Positions 8,856-15,263 of a stretch of 64,000 bases of DNA are shown here, piece by piece (position 1 is the stretch's first letter; the number at the start of each line of letters is the position of its first letter). The translations under genes were made by a program, and so were the position numbers. The notes below the pieces were generated by a model. That model saw only the letters and a list, made by a program, of their open reading frames with translations, did no database searches and was not told where the DNA came from. The stretch spans positions 186,001 to 250,000 of the forward strand of contig NZ_VINQ01000001.1 in NCBI RefSeq assembly GCF_008369105.1. The letters are read 5' to 3'. Origin of the DNA: Aquicoccus porphyridii (GTDB taxonomy: Bacteria > Pseudomonadota > Alphaproteobacteria > Rhodobacterales > Rhodobacteraceae).

Positions 8856-10028
8856 TCAGATTTGCGCCTGCGCGAAATCAACCAGCTTTTTCAAGGCGTT
8901 GCCGAACGCGGAATCCTCGATGGTCATCGCAACCCGGATATGCCCCGCCGCCGCCGCGCCAAAGCTTTCGCCCGGCATCACCGCGATGTGGCACTCGTCC
9001 AGCAGTTTCTCGGCGAAACCCGAACCGCTCATCCCCGTCGCGCGGATGTCGAGCATCAGGTACATCGCCCCCTGTGGCGGCACCAGCCGCAGCGCGTTCT
9101 GCCCGGCAAGCACCCCGAGCGCGATCTCGCGCCGCCGCCGGAACGGCGCGGCGACCTCCTCCTCGGCACGCGCGCCGCGGCGCAGCGCGAAAAGCGCAGC
9201 GTCCTGGATATACCCCGCCACGCCATAGGTGGTGTGGGTCGAGAGGTTGATCATGTGCCCCACCACCTCCTGCGGCCCCACGACCCAGCCGATGCGGCTG
9301 CCGGTCATGGCATGGCTTTTCGACATCGAGCCCACGACCAGCGTGCGTTCGGCCATCCCCTCGATTGCGCGGATCGACAGGTGCCGCCCCTCCCAGACCT
9401 GGCTGTCATAGACCTCGTCCGAGATGAGCCAGAGGTCGCGGGCACGCGCCACCTCGGCGATCCCTTCCAGCGTTTCGCGGGAATAGACCACCCCGGTGGG
9501 GTTGTTGGGCGTGTTGATCATGAGGGATGCCGCCCCCCCGGCCGCCACCACGTCGATATCCGCCGGGTCGGGTTGAAACCCGTTCTCCGGACGCGCGGCC
9601 ACGGGGCAGGGGATTGCCCCGGCACCCCGGATCGTGCCGGGATAGGTCGCGTAATAGGGGTCGATGAAAAGCGCGTTCTGCCCCGGATCGCACAGCGCCA
9701 TGTGGGATGCGAAAAGCCCCGATTGCCCGCCCGGCGTGACCAGCACGTTGTCACGGGTGGTCTTGACCCCGCTCGCCGCCTCGATCCGCGCCGCCACCTC
9801 GTCGCGCAGCGCGGGAATGCCCGGAATGTCGGCATAGCCGGTATGACCGGCCAGCGCCGCGCGGTGCATCTCGTCAAGGATGGCCGGATCGGTGCGAATG
9901 TCATGCTCGCCGATCGTCAACTCGGTCACATCGACGCCCGCGGCCTTCATCGCCCGGGCCCTGAGAAACAAATCCCACCCGCCCGATGCGTCGGATGTCA
10001 ATGTCGTGATCCGCTTTGAAAGCGCCAT
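8856..10028 (-). CDS. Class I/II PLP-dependent aminotransferase
   Basis: A 390-residue fold-type I aminotransferase. Visible landmarks are TPGGQSGLFASHMAL (cofactor phosphate region), MINTPNNPTG, LISDEVYDSQ (PLP-ring aspartate and tyrosine), the Schiff-base lysine in VGSMSKSHAMTGSRIGW, and the substrate-carboxylate arginine near the C-terminus. It belongs to the large aspartate/aromatic/alanine aminotransferase group; the exact amino donor cannot be told. It is divergent from the cysS leader region. Confidence 0.88.
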   Translation of the reverse strand: MALSKRITTLTSDASGGWDLFLRARAMKAAGVDVTELTIGEHDIRTDPAILDEMHRAALAGHTGYADIPGIPALRDEVAARIEAASGVKTTRDNVLVTPGGQSGLFASHMALCDPGQNALFIDPYYATYPGTIRGAGAIPCPVAARPENGFQPDPADIDVVAAGGAASLMINTPNNPTGVVYSRETLEGIAEVARARDLWLISDEVYDSQVWEGRHLSIRAIEGMAERTLVVGSMSKSHAMTGSRIGWVVGPQEVVGHMINLSTHTTYGVAGYIQDAALFALRRGARAEEEVAAPFRRRREIALGVLAGQNALRLVPPQGAMYLMLDIRATGMSGSGFAEKLLDECHIAVMPGESFGAAAAGHIRVAMTIEDSAFGNALKKLVDFAQAQI

Positions 10029-10093: not shown

Positions 10094-10122
10094 TTGGCAG
10101 GGGCTGCGAAATCTCCTAGTGT
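10094..10122 (+). promoter_or_regulatory. Predicted sigma-70 promoter of the cysS leader (leaderless start)
   Basis: A -35 TTGGCA (10094-10099) and a -10 TAGTGT (10117-10122) are separated by exactly 17 bases. Transcription would start about 10129-10130, on the ATG of the leader peptide at 10130. No Shine-Dalgarno sequence stands before that ATG, consistent with a leaderless transcript. Prediction only. Confidence 0.55.
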
Positions 10123-10129
10123 CGCGCCC

Positions 10130-10171
10130 ATGAACGCAACCTGCATCACCATCTGCTGTATTATCGGCTGA
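10130..10171 (+). CDS. Cys/Ile-rich leader peptide upstream of cysS
   Basis: A 13-codon reading frame, [13 protein letters not shown] then TGA, with three Cys codons (10142-10144, 10154-10159) and four Ile codons. It lies 106 bases ahead of cysS and directly behind a well-spaced promoter. Such composition is typical of attenuation leader peptides whose translation reports charged-tRNA levels. The downstream genes fit both residues: cysS charges tRNA-Cys, and cimA starts isoleucine synthesis. It is too short for ordinary gene finding. The sequence and codons are direct observations; the regulatory role is inferred. Confidence 0.6.
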
Positions 10172-10175
10172 CATA

Positions 10176-10192
10176 GGTCGGGCTCCCCGACC
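10176..10192 (+). promoter_or_regulatory. Hairpin in the cysS leader (possible attenuator)
   Basis: GGTCGGG-CTC-CCCGACC forms a perfect 7-bp stem starting four bases after the leader-peptide stop. A U-rich stretch follows at 10203-10223 but is not directly attached. Possible competing helices are CGGCTG (10165-10170, overlapping the leader stop) with CAGCCG (10250-10255), and GGCGGG (10197-10202) with CCCGCC (10241-10246). Confidence 0.45.
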
Positions 10193-10277
10193 ACCGGGCG
10201 GGTTGTTCTTCTGTTTCCTCTTTGAAATGAAATTGCTAAGCCCGCCGCGCAGCCGCACGCGAGGGCACGAAGGCAAC

Positions 10278-11774
10278 ATGACCGAGATCAAGCTTTACAA
10301 CACCCGAACCCGCAAGAAAGAGCGGTTCGATCCGATCGACCCCGACAATGTGCGGATGTATGTCTGCGGCCCCACGGTCTATGACCGCGCGCATCTGGGC
10401 AATGCGCGGCCCGTTGTCGTGTTTGACGTGCTCTATCGCCTTTTGCGCCATGTCTACGGGTCGGATCACGTGACCTATGTGCGCAATTTCACCGACGTCG
10501 ATGACAAGATCAACGCCCGCGCCGCCGAGTCGGGGCGCGAGATTTCCGAGATCACCGCCGAGACGACGCAATGGTTTCTCGACGACATGGGCGAGTTGGG
10601 CGCGCTTGAACCCAGCCACATGCCGCGCGCCACGCAATACATCCCCCAGATGGTGGCGATGATCGAAGACCTGATCGTCAAGGGCCACGCCTACGAGGCC
10701 GAGGGCCACGTGCTTTTTGCCGTCGACTCGTGGCGCGAGCATTACGGCAAGCTTTCGGGCCGCTCGGTCGATGACATGATCGCCGGGGCAAGGGTCGAGG
10801 TCGCCCCCTACAAGCGCAACCCGATGGATTTCGTGCTGTGGAAGCCCTCCTCAGATGACCTGCCGGGCTGGGACAGCCCCTGGGGCCGCGGCCGCCCCGG
10901 CTGGCATATCGAATGCTCGGCGATGGCCTTCGAACTTCTGGGCGAAAGCTTCGACATCCATGGCGGCGGCAACGACCTGATGTTCCCGCACCATGAAAAC
11001 GAGATCGCCCAAAGCTGCTGCGCCCACCCCGAGGGCGATTTCGCGAAAGTCTGGATGCATAACGAAATGCTCCAGGTCGAGGGCAAGAAGATGTCCAAGA
11101 GCTTGGGCAATTTCTTCACCGTGCGGGATTTGCTGGAGCAGGGAGTGCCGGGCGAGGTGATCCGGTTCGTGTTCCTCTCCACGCATTACCGCAAGCCGAT
11201 GGATTGGACGGCGGAGAAGGCGCGGGAGGCGGAGGCGACGCTCAGGAAGTGGTACGGACAGGTATCAGAAGCGGTCGATGGGGCCGAACCCTACGGTGCG
11301 ATTGAGCAAGCTCTTTCCGACGACCTCAATACAGCGCTGGTCATCACAGAACTCCACCAGCTTTCGAATGCAGGCGACACCCCGGCCCTGCGGGCTTCTC
11401 TTCAATTAATCGGGCTAATGGGGAAGGACGTGCCGGAATGGTCCCAGAAGTCGGGATGGAATGATATCGTCTCCGACATCATTGAAGCGCGGATGGCTGC
11501 CAAAAGAGAACGCAATTTCGAGCGAGCGGATGAAATCCGCGACTGGCTTCTTGAAAGGGGAATCAAGATCACTGACGCCCCGTCGGGGACAGAAGTGTCG
11601 GCGGTGGATGCCAAAAATGTCATGGACTATGCTCATTCTCTTGGTGAGGAAGAACACTTGGCACTTGGTCATAGGCCACAGGGCGAAGGAGCTTGGAGTT
11701 TCTCCCAAGCGGACATTGTTCCAACGTATCTTCGGCACGTCTTGAGTGAGTGGCAAAGGGAAGTTGTGAAGTGA
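10278..11774 (+). CDS. cysS: Cysteinyl-tRNA synthetase
   Basis: A 498-residue class I aminoacyl-tRNA synthetase charging tRNA-Cys. It shows the zinc-ligand Cys30 in [18 protein letters not shown], the HIGH-equivalent HLGN (39-42), [20 protein letters not shown], the zinc motif [10 protein letters not shown], and KMSKS at 271-275. The ATG at 10278 follows CGAAGG. The family ends after a segment like [21 protein letters not shown]. Here about 58 further residues (441-498) follow that I do not recognise, and the last part of the gene is visibly more AT-rich than its surroundings. Expression is probably governed by the leader peptide upstream. Confidence 0.95.
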
Positions 11775-11904: not shown

Positions 11905-13521
11905 ATGACCGAACGCCTCTACATTTACGACACCACCCTGCGGGACGGCCAGCAAACACAGGGCGTGCAATTCTCGACCCCCGAGAAACAGGCCATCGCG
12001 AAAACCCTCGACGCGCTCGGCGTCGATTACATCGAAGGCGGCTGGCCGGGCGCCAACCCGACCGACAGCGCATTCTTCCACGAAGCCCCGAAAACCCGCG
12101 CCACCTTCACCGCCTTCGGGATGACCAAGCGCGCCGGTCGCAGCGCCGAGAACGACGACGTGCTGGCCGAGGTGATGAACGCGGGCACATCGGCCGTCTG
12201 CCTCGTCGGCAAGACCCATGATTTCCACGTCGAACGAGCACTCGGAATCACGCTTGAGGAAAACCTTGAAAACATCCGCGCCAGCATAGCGCATATGGTG
12301 GCGCAGGGTCGTGAGGCGCTGTTCGATGCCGAGCATTTCTTCGACGGTTACAAGGCCAATGCGCCCTATGCGCTCGATTGCGTGCTCGCGGCCTTCCACG
12401 CGGGCGCACGCTGGGTCGTGCTGTGCGATACCAATGGCGGCACGCTGCCCGCCGAGATCCACGACATCACCCGCGCGGTGATCGAGGCGGGCGTGCCGGG
12501 CGACCGCCTCGGCATCCACACTCATAACGACACCGAAAGCGCCGTCGCGGGCAGTCTTGCCGCCATCGACGCGGGCGCGCGACAGGTGCAGGGCACGCTC
12601 AACGGGCTAGGCGAACGCTGCGGCAACGCCAACCTCACCACGCTCATCCCCACGCTTCTGCTCAAGGAACCCTATGCCAGCACCTTCGAGACCGGCATCA
12701 CGCATGACGCGCTGAAAACCCTCACCCAGGCCAGCCGCCAGCTTGACGATATCCTCAACCGCGTGCCCACGCGACAGGCGCCCTATGTCGGCGCCTCGGC
12801 CTTTGCCCACAAGGCCGGGCTGCACGCGAGTGCCATCCTCAAGGACCCCACCACTTACGAACATATCGACCCCGAGGCGGTCGGCAACACCCGCATCATC
12901 CCGATGTCGAACCAGGCGGGCCAATCGAACCTGCGCCGCCGCCTCGCCGAGGCCGGGATCGAGGTGCCACCGGGCGATCCGGCGCTGCCTCGCATCCTCG
13001 AAGAGATCAAGACGCGCGAGGCGATGGGCTATACCTATGACAGCGCACAGGCCAGTTTCGAACTGCTCGCGCGGCGCGAATTGGGCCAGATGCCCGAGTT
13101 TTTCGAGGTCAAGCGCTACAAGGTGACGGTCGAGCGGCGCAAGAACAAGTATGACCGCATGGTCTCGCTCTCCGAGGCGGTCGTAGTGGTCAAGGTCGAT
13201 GGTGACAAGAAGCTATCGGTTTCCGAAAGCCTTGATGAAAGCGGATCGGATCGCGGCCCGGTCAACGCGCTGTCCAAGGCGCTGGCCAAGGATCTGGGCA
13301 GCTACCAGTCATTGATCGACGATGTGAAACTGGTGGATTTCAAGGTCCGCATCACGCAAGGCGGCACCGAGGCCGTCACCCGCGTCATCATCGACAGCCA
13401 GGACGGGCAGGGCCGACGCTGGTCCACCGTGGGGGTCAGCGCCAACATAGTCGACGCCAGTTTCGACGCCCTGCTTGACGCGGTGAACTGGAAACTCCTG
13501 CGCGACGGGGCAAAGGGCTAG
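11905..13521 (+). CDS. cimA: Citramalate synthase
   Basis: A 538-residue enzyme of the isopropylmalate synthase family that condenses pyruvate with acetyl-CoA to (R)-citramalate, giving 2-oxobutyrate for isoleucine without threonine. Residues 1-270 are the catalytic barrel: YDTTLRDGQQTQGV, DTNGGTLP, the metal motif HTHND, and GLGERCGNANL. Then come a linker (FAHKAGLHASAI) and a C-terminal LeuA-type regulatory domain (residues 410-538), probable site of isoleucine feedback. Its length and the YIEGGWPGANP segment favour citramalate over isopropylmalate or homocitrate synthase. It lies 130 bases after cysS, and the gap contains GC-rich hairpins. Confidence 0.92.
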   Translation: MTERLYIYDTTLRDGQQTQGVQFSTPEKQAIAKTLDALGVDYIEGGWPGANPTDSAFFHEAPKTRATFTAFGMTKRAGRSAENDDVLAEVMNAGTSAVCLVGKTHDFHVERALGITLEENLENIRASIAHMVAQGREALFDAEHFFDGYKANAPYALDCVLAAFHAGARWVVLCDTNGGTLPAEIHDITRAVIEAGVPGDRLGIHTHNDTESAVAGSLAAIDAGARQVQGTLNGLGERCGNANLTTLIPTLLLKEPYASTFETGITHDALKTLTQASRQLDDILNRVPTRQAPYVGASAFAHKAGLHASAILKDPTTYEHIDPEAVGNTRIIPMSNQAGQSNLRRRLAEAGIEVPPGDPALPRILEEIKTREAMGYTYDSAQASFELLARRELGQMPEFFEVKRYKVTVERRKNKYDRMVSLSEAVVVVKVDGDKKLSVSESLDESGSDRGPVNALSKALAKDLGSYQSLIDDVKLVDFKVRITQGGTEAVTRVIIDSQDGQGRRWSTVGVSANIVDASFDALLDAVNWKLLRDGAKG

Positions 13522-13530
13522 GGTGGCGGC

Positions 13531-14505
13531 ATGGTTCTGAAGGTGCTGTCCTTCCTTCTCGTCTCGGTCGGTATCTACCTCTCGGTCGCGCTTGTCCTGA
13601 TCCTGTCGCAATCGCCGGGCCACATGAAGAGTGACGGACAAACACTTGATTTTGCATCTGTTGTGACGGATGATCCGGCCGAACCGCTGCCCCGGATCGA
13701 GGTCACGGCGGAGGATGGGAGCCTCTACAGCGCCGGGCATCTGCCGGCCCCCCCGGGGCGGCCGCTTCTCGTCATGCTGCATGGCTCGGGCTGGCACGAT
13801 GGCCAGTTCGCGAAACTGGCCCGTGCGCTCGAAGGATCGGCCGAGATCATCACGCCCCCCCTGCGCGGTCATTTCCGGGGTCCGGGCGAACGCGGCGACC
13901 TGCAATATATCGGCCAGCTCGAGGATGATGTCGCCGCCCTGATCGAGGCGCAGGCAAAGCCCGGGCAACCGGTCGTTCTGCTGGGCCATTCCTCGGGGGG
14001 TGGGCTTGTGGTGCGCTTCGCGGGCGGCGCCCATGATGGCCTGATAGATCGGGCAATCCTGCTGGCGCCATTCCTGCAATACGACGCGCCGACGACGCGG
14101 CCCGATTCGGGTGGTTGGGCGCGCCCCTTGACGCGCCGGATCATCGGCCTGTCGATGCTCAACGCGGTTGGGTTCCATGCGCTCGACGGTCTCACCGCGA
14201 TCGAATTCGCCATGCCAGCCGCGCTGCGCAATGGCCCTTTGGGAGATCAGGCGACACTGGCCTATAGCTGGCGGCTCAACCAGTCTTATGCGCCGCGCCG
14301 CGATTACCTCGCCGACGCCGCTGCGCTGCCGCCCTTCCTGCTGATTGCCGGCGCGCAGGACGAGGCGTTCGATGCATCCGCCTATGAACCGCTTCTCGCG
14401 CCGGTCAATCCCGACGGGCGCTATGAAATCCTGCCCGGGGTCGATCACCTGGGCGTGGTGAGCGCGAAACGCACCGTCGCCCTGATCGCCGAGGCCTTGG
14501 GATGA
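13531..14505 (+). CDS. Membrane-anchored alpha/beta hydrolase
   Basis: A 324-residue protein with an N-terminal hydrophobic helix (VLKVLSFLLVSVGIYLSVAL) that probably anchors it in the membrane. The hydrolase core has the oxyanion region VMLHGSGWHD, the nucleophile elbow GHSSGGG (serine in GxSxG), an acid site near LLIAGAQDEAFD, and the catalytic histidine in LPGVDHLGV. It looks like a lysophospholipase/serine aminopeptidase S33-type hydrolase of unknown substrate. It overlaps the next gene by four bases (ATGA). Confidence 0.85.
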   Translation: MVLKVLSFLLVSVGIYLSVALVLILSQSPGHMKSDGQTLDFASVVTDDPAEPLPRIEVTAEDGSLYSAGHLPAPPGRPLLVMLHGSGWHDGQFAKLARALEGSAEIITPPLRGHFRGPGERGDLQYIGQLEDDVAALIEAQAKPGQPVVLLGHSSGGGLVVRFAGGAHDGLIDRAILLAPFLQYDAPTTRPDSGGWARPLTRRIIGLSMLNAVGFHALDGLTAIEFAMPAALRNGPLGDQATLAYSWRLNQSYAPRRDYLADAAALPPFLLIAGAQDEAFDASAYEPLLAPVNPDGRYEILPGVDHLGVVSAKRTVALIAEALG

Positions 14506-15263
14506 GCGAGGATATCGCCGCCTGCGCCGAGATCGTGCAAAAGGGCGATCCGCACCGGTTCCGCGCCACCATGGCCGCGCCGGTGCAAGCGCGCGAAAAG
14601 CTCTTTCCGCTCTATGCCTTCAATGTCGAGGTGGCCCGGGCGCCCTGGGTCACATCCGAGCCGGGGATCGCCGAGATCCGCCTGCAATGGTGGATCGAAG
14701 CGCTGGAAGAGATTGCCGCGGGCGGCGTGGTGCGGCGGCACGAGGTGGTGCTGCCGCTGGCGCACACTCTCGCTCCCGATCAGGCCCGCGCACTCATCCC
14801 GCTGATCGAGGCGCGGCAGTGGGACATCTATTCCGATCCATTCGCCAGTGACTCGGCGCTCACCGATTACCTGTCCGACACGTCTGGCCGACTGATGCAG
14901 GTGGCGGTCGGGCTACTGGGGCAGGGGGGCGAGGCGGTGGCGCAGGACGCGGGAGTTGCTCTCGGCGTGGCCAACTGGCTGGCCGCCGTGCCTGTCCTCA
15001 TGGCCGCAGGGCGTCATCCGCTGCCCGATGACAGCGATGCGGGCATCCGCGCGCTGGCCGAGGCCGGGCTCGACCACCTGAACCGCGCGCGCCGCACCCC
15101 CGTGCCGCCAAGCCTGCGCCCGGCCTTCCTGCCCATGGCGGGCACTGCCCGGATGCTCCGGGCCGCCCGAGCGAGGCCCGAACATGTGCGAAAAGGCGGG
15201 CTCGACACCCCGTTTCGCGCGCGCCTGTCTCTGATGAAAACCGCCCTCACCGGACGGTGGTAG
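14502..15263 (+). CDS. Squalene/phytoene synthase family protein
   Basis: A 253-residue all-helical protein of the squalene/phytoene synthase superfamily (REKLFPLYAFNVEVARAPW and RLQWWIEALEEI). The diphosphate-binding aspartate-rich motifs of true prenyl synthases are not intact: the DxxxD-like positions read YAFNVEVAR. It therefore resembles the non-catalytic branch related to the complex I assembly factor NDUFAF6 rather than a terpenoid synthase. No carotenoid gene is nearby. It is coupled to the upstream hydrolase, and its stop lies three bases from the converging MFS gene. Confidence 0.75.
   Translation: MSEDIAACAEIVQKGDPHRFRATMAAPVQAREKLFPLYAFNVEVARAPWVTSEPGIAEIRLQWWIEALEEIAAGGVVRRHEVVLPLAHTLAPDQARALIPLIEARQWDIYSDPFASDSALTDYLSDTSGRLMQVAVGLLGQGGEAVAQDAGVALGVANWLAAVPVLMAAGRHPLPDDSDAGIRALAEAGLDHLNRARRTPVPPSLRPAFLPMAGTARMLRAARARPEHVRKGGLDTPFRARLSLMKTALTGRW

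Follow-up and report, generated by a model that had tools for sequence, protein, structure and literature searches.

The closest described relative of the leader considered here is the uORFC-8-2 motif, of which 145 examples with tandem Cys codons have been reported upstream of cysS in Rhodobacterales (PMC8632094, RNA Biol 2021). The published structure consists of two stems, the first of which contains the Cys codons, followed by a U-run, and ribosome-mediated attenuation has been proposed for it in a motif section that contains no experiment (PMC8632094). That section names only Cys and cysS; Ile codons, cimA, leaderless starts and pairing past the U-run do not appear in it. PMC8632094 is the only paper on the motif that we found, and neither the Ile/cimA link nor the leaderless start turned up in the open-licence literature that we searched.

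Two other kinds of leader invite comparison. The thrL leader of E. coli likewise combines Thr codons with Ile codons (PMC7041290), but there both concern one pathway, whereas the leader described here stands before two genes, one for a tRNA synthetase and one of the isoleucine pathway; we claim no homology. The Cys-rich frames of Actinobacteria are also short and upstream, carry consecutive Cys codons shortly before the stop and have been proposed to be leader peptides, but they precede cys operons or cbs rather than cysS, they belong to another phylum, and the account of them reports no conserved hairpin (PMC1262725).

How does the present locus compare? The window is a 64,000-nucleotide stretch of Aquicoccus porphyridii DNA, and the leader, its RNA elements and the two genes behind it lie on the + strand. 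The leader peptide frame (10130-10171), supported by the sequence, by relatives and by covariance model R1, encodes 13 residues and ends in a TGA stop (10169-10171); Cys is found at residues 5, 9 and 10, and Ile at residues 6, 8, 11 and 12. A Shine-Dalgarno-like GAAGG (10269-10273) precedes cysS, the cysteinyl-tRNA synthetase gene (10278-11774), identified by its frame and relatives, and the name, given by resemblance, matches PMC8632094. An Rfam search of the region returned nothing above threshold, its one match, on the minus strand, scoring 15.3 bits where the cut-off is 60 (E 0.99), and it placed the region in neither the T-box class nor any other Rfam family of cis-regulators. The frame at 11905-13521, 130 bases after cysS, is citramalate synthase-like, a putative activity, and we take it to be cimA. 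As in attenuators of the trp and thr type, the leader codons match the pathway regulated, with Cys and Ile codons standing before cysS-cimA.

The leader is a genuine member of the published predicted attenuator class uORFC-8-2, with which it shares the position upstream of cysS in Rhodobacterales (its named relatives are Rhodobacteraceae), an AUG-initiated uORF with tandem Cys codons, and a 3' U-run. When set against the published description of the stems alone, the U-rich run is present and a stem between the leader and the segment that we call region 3 is predicted. The Cys part of the leader, as described in PMC8632094, is already in print; what is new here is the leaderless signature, the Ile codons, the link to cimA, and a covarying helix past the published motif.

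Where does transcription of the leader begin? The initial annotation pointed to a promoter with 17-base spacing whose start would fall on the ATG, and this arrangement is indeed found in the sequence: the -35 TTGGCA (10094-10099) and the -10 TAGTGT (10117-10122) bound a promoter of 10094-10122, and the ATG at 10130 lies seven bases past the -10. A consensus promoter scan found 0 sites at this promoter because TAGTGT is a weak -10, and taken alone the promoter is unremarkable; its conservation across the family lifts it above chance. Alignment of 167 loci on the ATG gives T at -35 (0.88), G at -33 (0.69), TA near -12/-11 (0.58/0.66) and C at -1 (0.84), and the distance from promoter to ATG is nearly fixed across family loci. 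A Shine-Dalgarno-like tetramer precedes 10 of the 167 uORFs versus 158 of 167 cysS starts. The fixed distance and the few Shine-Dalgarno-like sites fit the leaderless start that had been proposed: on these sequence features the leader looks leaderless, with its ATG at the expected transcript start. The trpL leader of Sinorhizobium is reportedly leaderless as well, and if so, both are alphaproteobacterial leader peptides translated from the first codon of the transcript. The trpL leader differs in its Trp codons, in serving trp genes, and in the known trans action of its peptide (PMC7298713).

Conservation of the tiny frame is extensive within the family. It was found before cysS in 58 of 83 loci (80 from named records and 3 of the window's genus), mostly 85-150 bases upstream, and in 0 of 8 rows outside the family. 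R1, built from the 48 sequences of alignment A1, matches 325 of 394 family genomes and 324 of 393 genera, counts in which the 48 building sequences match by construction, and all strong matches that were fetched stand before cysS. The 226 loci collected include 18 without cysS, namely two off-target protein matches and 16 weak second R1 matches (L131-L146), which we take as chance. Once 16 duplicates were dropped from the 208 cysS loci, 167 of the remaining 192 had a leader frame. A leader cut off at a contig edge (L049) was counted as a leader; 80 further R1 matches in this sample come from the upper part of the list, so that the leader-bearing set leans to strong members. On the other side, 69 R1-negative genomes were searched, 56 of which have cysS, and upstream DNA was fetched for 53 (G337, G218 and G370 were omitted for want of upstream sequence or a start); leaders at these loci were chosen by eye from lists requiring a Cys.

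The small Cys/Ile frame is thus real and conserved. The interpretation in the initial annotation is supported in part: the frame, the Cys and Ile codons and the promoter-ATG distance are kept in the family, and the core of that interpretation, a leaderless Cys/Ile peptide with ribosome stalling, alternative leader helices and a possible dual readout, is well supported by comparison, but the 7-bp hairpin that was given prominence does not share in this conservation. The hairpin is present at 10176-10192, beginning four bases past the leader stop, as seen in the sequence, the alignment and the fold, and it is an insertion specific to the window's genus, absent from 45 of the 48 rows of A1.

Tandem Cys codons occur in 132 of 167 relatives, beginning at codons 8-11 in 129 of the 132; in the window they are codons 9 and 10. 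The uORFC-8-2 Cys codons are usually at positions 14 and 15 (PMC8632094), and as this offset runs through the whole set, it is probably a difference in numbering. Counted from the end of the peptide, Cys is the fifth residue in 134 and the fourth in 135 of 167 leaders, and Ile is the third in 163 of 167. Among leader residues after the Met, the fractions of Ile (0.307) and Cys (0.232) are upper values, since the leader-picking score rewards both. The third-from-end Ile codon (10160-10162 in the window) is ATT in 160 of 163 leaders, whereas ATC is the commoner codon in cysS 5' ends, and this near fixation suggests an extra constraint at the RNA level there. With that residue excluded, ATT still accounts for 213 of 484 leader Ile codons versus 36 of 300 in cysS 5' ends. 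Among the residues sixth to eighth from the end, Ile is encoded by ATC (158) or ATT (157) and never by ATA, and V, L, M and F account for 32 between them. By this comparison of sequences, the Ile codons are conserved beside the Cys codons, and ATC and ATT interchange.

Do the Ile codons follow cimA? We call cimA near downstream when no more than 1000 bases separate it from the cysS stop (the gap is 697 bases at one locus), and by this definition it is present in 142 of the 163 family loci with known context and absent there in 21. The 163 rows are the 212 rows of the tree less 8 outgroup rows and 41 loci short of downstream sequence; the context of G104, which has an Ile-rich leader and a cysS close to a contig end, was set to unknown. 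A leader with at least 2 Ile is found at 131 of the 142 loci with cimA near downstream versus 0 of the 21 without (Fisher p 9e-19, uncorrected for kinship), and when leaders are filtered blind to Cys, 130 of 133 leader-bearing cimA loci versus 2 of 21 loci without cimA are Ile-rich. On a FastTree tree of the 212 cysS proteins, cimA adjacency changes 14 times, and the Ile-rich leader goes with cimA in 7.4 of 8 supported independent pairs and against it in 0 (median p 0.008, range 0.008-0.06). The same pair test for any leader against cimA gives 6.1 the same way and 0.1 opposite (median p 0.03). Nine loci with cimA near downstream have no leader.

The frame at 14502-15263, presumably squalene/phytoene-synthase-like, helps to place the loci that lack cimA. 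Where a homologue was found at cimA-bearing loci, it stands behind cimA in 99 of 101. At 11 of the 21 cimA-lacking loci a homologue (36-52% identity) is directly behind cysS, within 371 bases and on the same strand, so that at these loci cimA is missing in place, most simply through loss, though the tree cannot tell loss from gain. The other 10 have no synthase homologue in the fetched downstream DNA. What has become of the leader where cimA is missing? In genus g106, where it is missing in place, three genomes have leaderless-looking frames, MDWICCLCRA, MDWICCLCRA and MEWICCPC, in which Cys is kept, encoded now by TGC and now by TGT, and no Ile run remains. In two further cimA-lacking genera the frames are degenerate, with 1 Cys and without Ile, and the remaining 15 of the 21 loci have no leader; g106 is the one lineage with a clear Cys-only leader. 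The dual Cys/Ile readout over cysS and cimA suggested earlier appears well founded in that the Ile codons are conserved and track cimA. Threonine deaminase was considered as a simple rule for the presence of cimA and rejected: its regulatory domain (PF00585) is found in 13 of 15 genomes with adjacent cimA absent or context unknown, and in 35 of 47 leader-bearing genomes examined, the window's own included and cimA not being checked in each.

The leader RNA can be folded in competing ways. The fold of 10130-10290 is unexceptional (z -0.85), and that of 10130-10220, up to the U-rich stretch, has a z of -2.94, with 1 of 200 shuffles as stable. In the latter fold codons 3-5 (10136-10144), which include the first Cys codon, form the predicted 5' arm of a terminator-like stem with region 3 (10197-10206, engaged through 10198-10206), with the genus hairpin inside the loop, and the U-rich stretch noted earlier is present at 10203-10216 as a terminator-like tail after region 3. 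Across the family, in 150 loci, the predicted partner of region 3 is the leader's last two sense codons, which form with a GCGGG segment a stem that lies 5' of a T-rich stretch. Shuffles of the nascent RNA are less stable than the RNA itself (mean z -1.77; 52 of 100 sampled loci fall below -1.64). The leader:region 3 stem shows no compensatory change in the family, shuffled leaders pair with region 3 almost equally well (0.76 versus 0.82 for real leaders), and most relatives have an interrupted U-rich run.

The alternative partner of region 3, through 10197-10203, is region 4 (10240-10246), and here compensatory changes are found across the family. The outer pair alternates, being G-C in 63 cases and C-G in 35, and is paired in 103 of the 152 usable loci out of 164, a count in which the window-genus rows L003 and L004 are misplaced, versus 62.5 in shuffles, 0 of 1000 being as high. 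A tree test on 13 supported pairs gives 5.6 the same way, 0.0 opposite and 7.4 with no difference (median p 0.03); L003 and L004 were excluded from this test and from the leader:region 3 positions. Masking the leader lifts the mean predicted probability of the 3:4 helix from 0.18 to 0.68. In the window itself the 3:4 helix is absent from the predicted fold, even with the leader masked. Comparison thus supports covariation in the family of a 3:4 helix that lies beyond the published motif, and region 3 is predicted to have two competing helices, with the leader or with region 4, of which only the second covaries. One of the two alternative helices listed in the initial annotation, 10197-10202 with 10241-10246, is accordingly present and conserved in the family; the other, 10165-10170 with 10250-10255, is present in the window, and by eye was seen only in the three members of the window's genus (L002-L004).

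Region 4 is overlapped by a further conserved element, TTTCC-N15-TGCTA (10214-10238). The pattern TTTYC-N15-TGNTA, with exactly 15 bases between its parts, is found at 85 of 179 leader-bearing loci, where any other spacing between 8 and 23 occurs 0-5 times, and at 15 of 56 family loci without a leader; shuffles give 0.1 and 0.0, respectively. As a general class of promoter the pattern was rejected, with 17 matches in the genome versus 42 for the reversed pattern, and because it is not enriched genome-wide, the element remains a candidate: a possible second, leader-free cysS promoter, or a binding site. Some of the genome-wide matches precede possible gene starts.

How might the leader work? 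The reading we favour, and hold to be reasonably probable, is a dual attenuator in which a leaderless leader peptide senses charged tRNA-Cys and tRNA-Ile on behalf of the cysS-cimA unit. Transcription would start at the leader ATG. When the Cys/Ile run is read fast, the ribosome would leave the leader, which could then pair with region 3 to give the predicted terminator-like stem just before the U-rich run. When Cys-tRNA or Ile-tRNA is scarce, the ribosome would stall on the run and mask the leader arm, and transcription would continue into cysS and cimA. Region 3 would then be free for the covarying pairing with region 4, which may keep the stem from re-forming; because region 4 lies behind the U-rich run, the 3:4 helix cannot itself prevent termination at that run. 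Comparison of the loci probably extends the Cys-only switch of cysS to a Cys/Ile switch of cysS-cimA. We also lean, on balance, toward a wider proposal, that the codons of the leader evolve with its targets: one leaderless peptide would report Cys and Ile to cysS-cimA, the Ile run would be missing where cimA is missing, leaving a Cys-only, degenerate or absent leader, and a second promoter, leader-free and overlapping region 4, would provide basal expression outside this control.

One might think that the switch senses Cys only, as published for uORFC-8-2 (PMC8632094), with the Ile codons serving merely as AU-rich sequence that keeps the leader open, or held by some other RNA constraint. The near fixation of the third-from-end Ile as ATT is what such a constraint would look like, and the Cys-only leader of g106 is also in its favour. 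Elsewhere in the run, however, ATC and ATT replace one another freely and few other AU-rich or hydrophobic codons occur; the Ile-rich leader tracks cimA rather than cysS, which is present at all these loci, and 15 of the 21 cimA-lacking loci are without any leader, so we consider a Cys-only switch rather unlikely. It is also unlikely, in our view, that the link to cimA is a by-product of rearrangement, cysS having been moved or replaced with loss of both its upstream leader and its downstream neighbour. Such events would account for the 10 cimA-lacking loci with no synthase homologue in the fetched DNA, and the upstream sequences of Paracoccus loci L030 and L054 do look unrelated. They would not account for the 11 loci where the synthase homologue is directly behind cysS, as it is behind cimA elsewhere, nor for g106, which keeps a leader without the Ile run, and the tree test counts independent pairs.

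The dual attenuator might also work by means other than an intrinsic terminator. If masking of the leader allowed the 3:4 helix to open the cysS ribosome-binding site, control would be translational, and masking does raise predicted access to the Shine-Dalgarno sequence at 128 of 152 loci. The gain is unspecific, however, being 0.148 versus 0.147 with shuffled leaders (90 of the 152 loci sampled), so that gating of this site is unsupported and translational control seems very improbable. Rho-dependent attenuation is somewhat less improbable, and still doubtful. The T/C-rich stretch after region 3, enclosed by the 3:4 helix, could be where Rho loads, with the ribosome or that helix standing guard, and region 4 lies too far downstream for intrinsic control; on the other hand, no result obtained here favours Rho over an intrinsic terminator.

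Why would a cell read Cys and Ile together? If the dual attenuator is correct, Cys and Ile supply are predicted to be coordinated in these bacteria. Threonine deaminase is said to be a target of cysteine in E. coli, going by the title of a 1981 report by Harris. In Corynebacterium glutamicum, cysteine inhibits acetohydroxyacid synthase, and valine relieves the effect on growth while isoleucine does so little or not at all (PMC11893703). Extracts of Roseobacter denitrificans contain both citramalate synthase and threonine deaminase activity (PMC2749216). In that case a prediction published for Cys only would become a testable switch with two inputs, present in hundreds of genera, and the loci with and without cimA would form a natural series in which leader codons change with the genes served.

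Several smaller observations may be added. An aminotransferase-like gene (8856-10028) is divergent from the leader promoter, and a relative of it is found in the fetched upstream DNA, where flanks are often too short, of 34 of 133 leader-bearing cimA loci. At L062 the leader is 172 bases from cysS, and what appears by eye to be a long inverted repeat is inserted between the two. Two frames with cimA near downstream are of a different composition: that of G278 (L275/L299), MTVAARTAVHIAAIRIIR, has 4 Ile and no Cys, and that of G250 (L298), MAIIINILTNFVSINPQIL, is likewise short, Ile-rich and without Cys. Judged by their codons, these are possibly Ile-only leaders.
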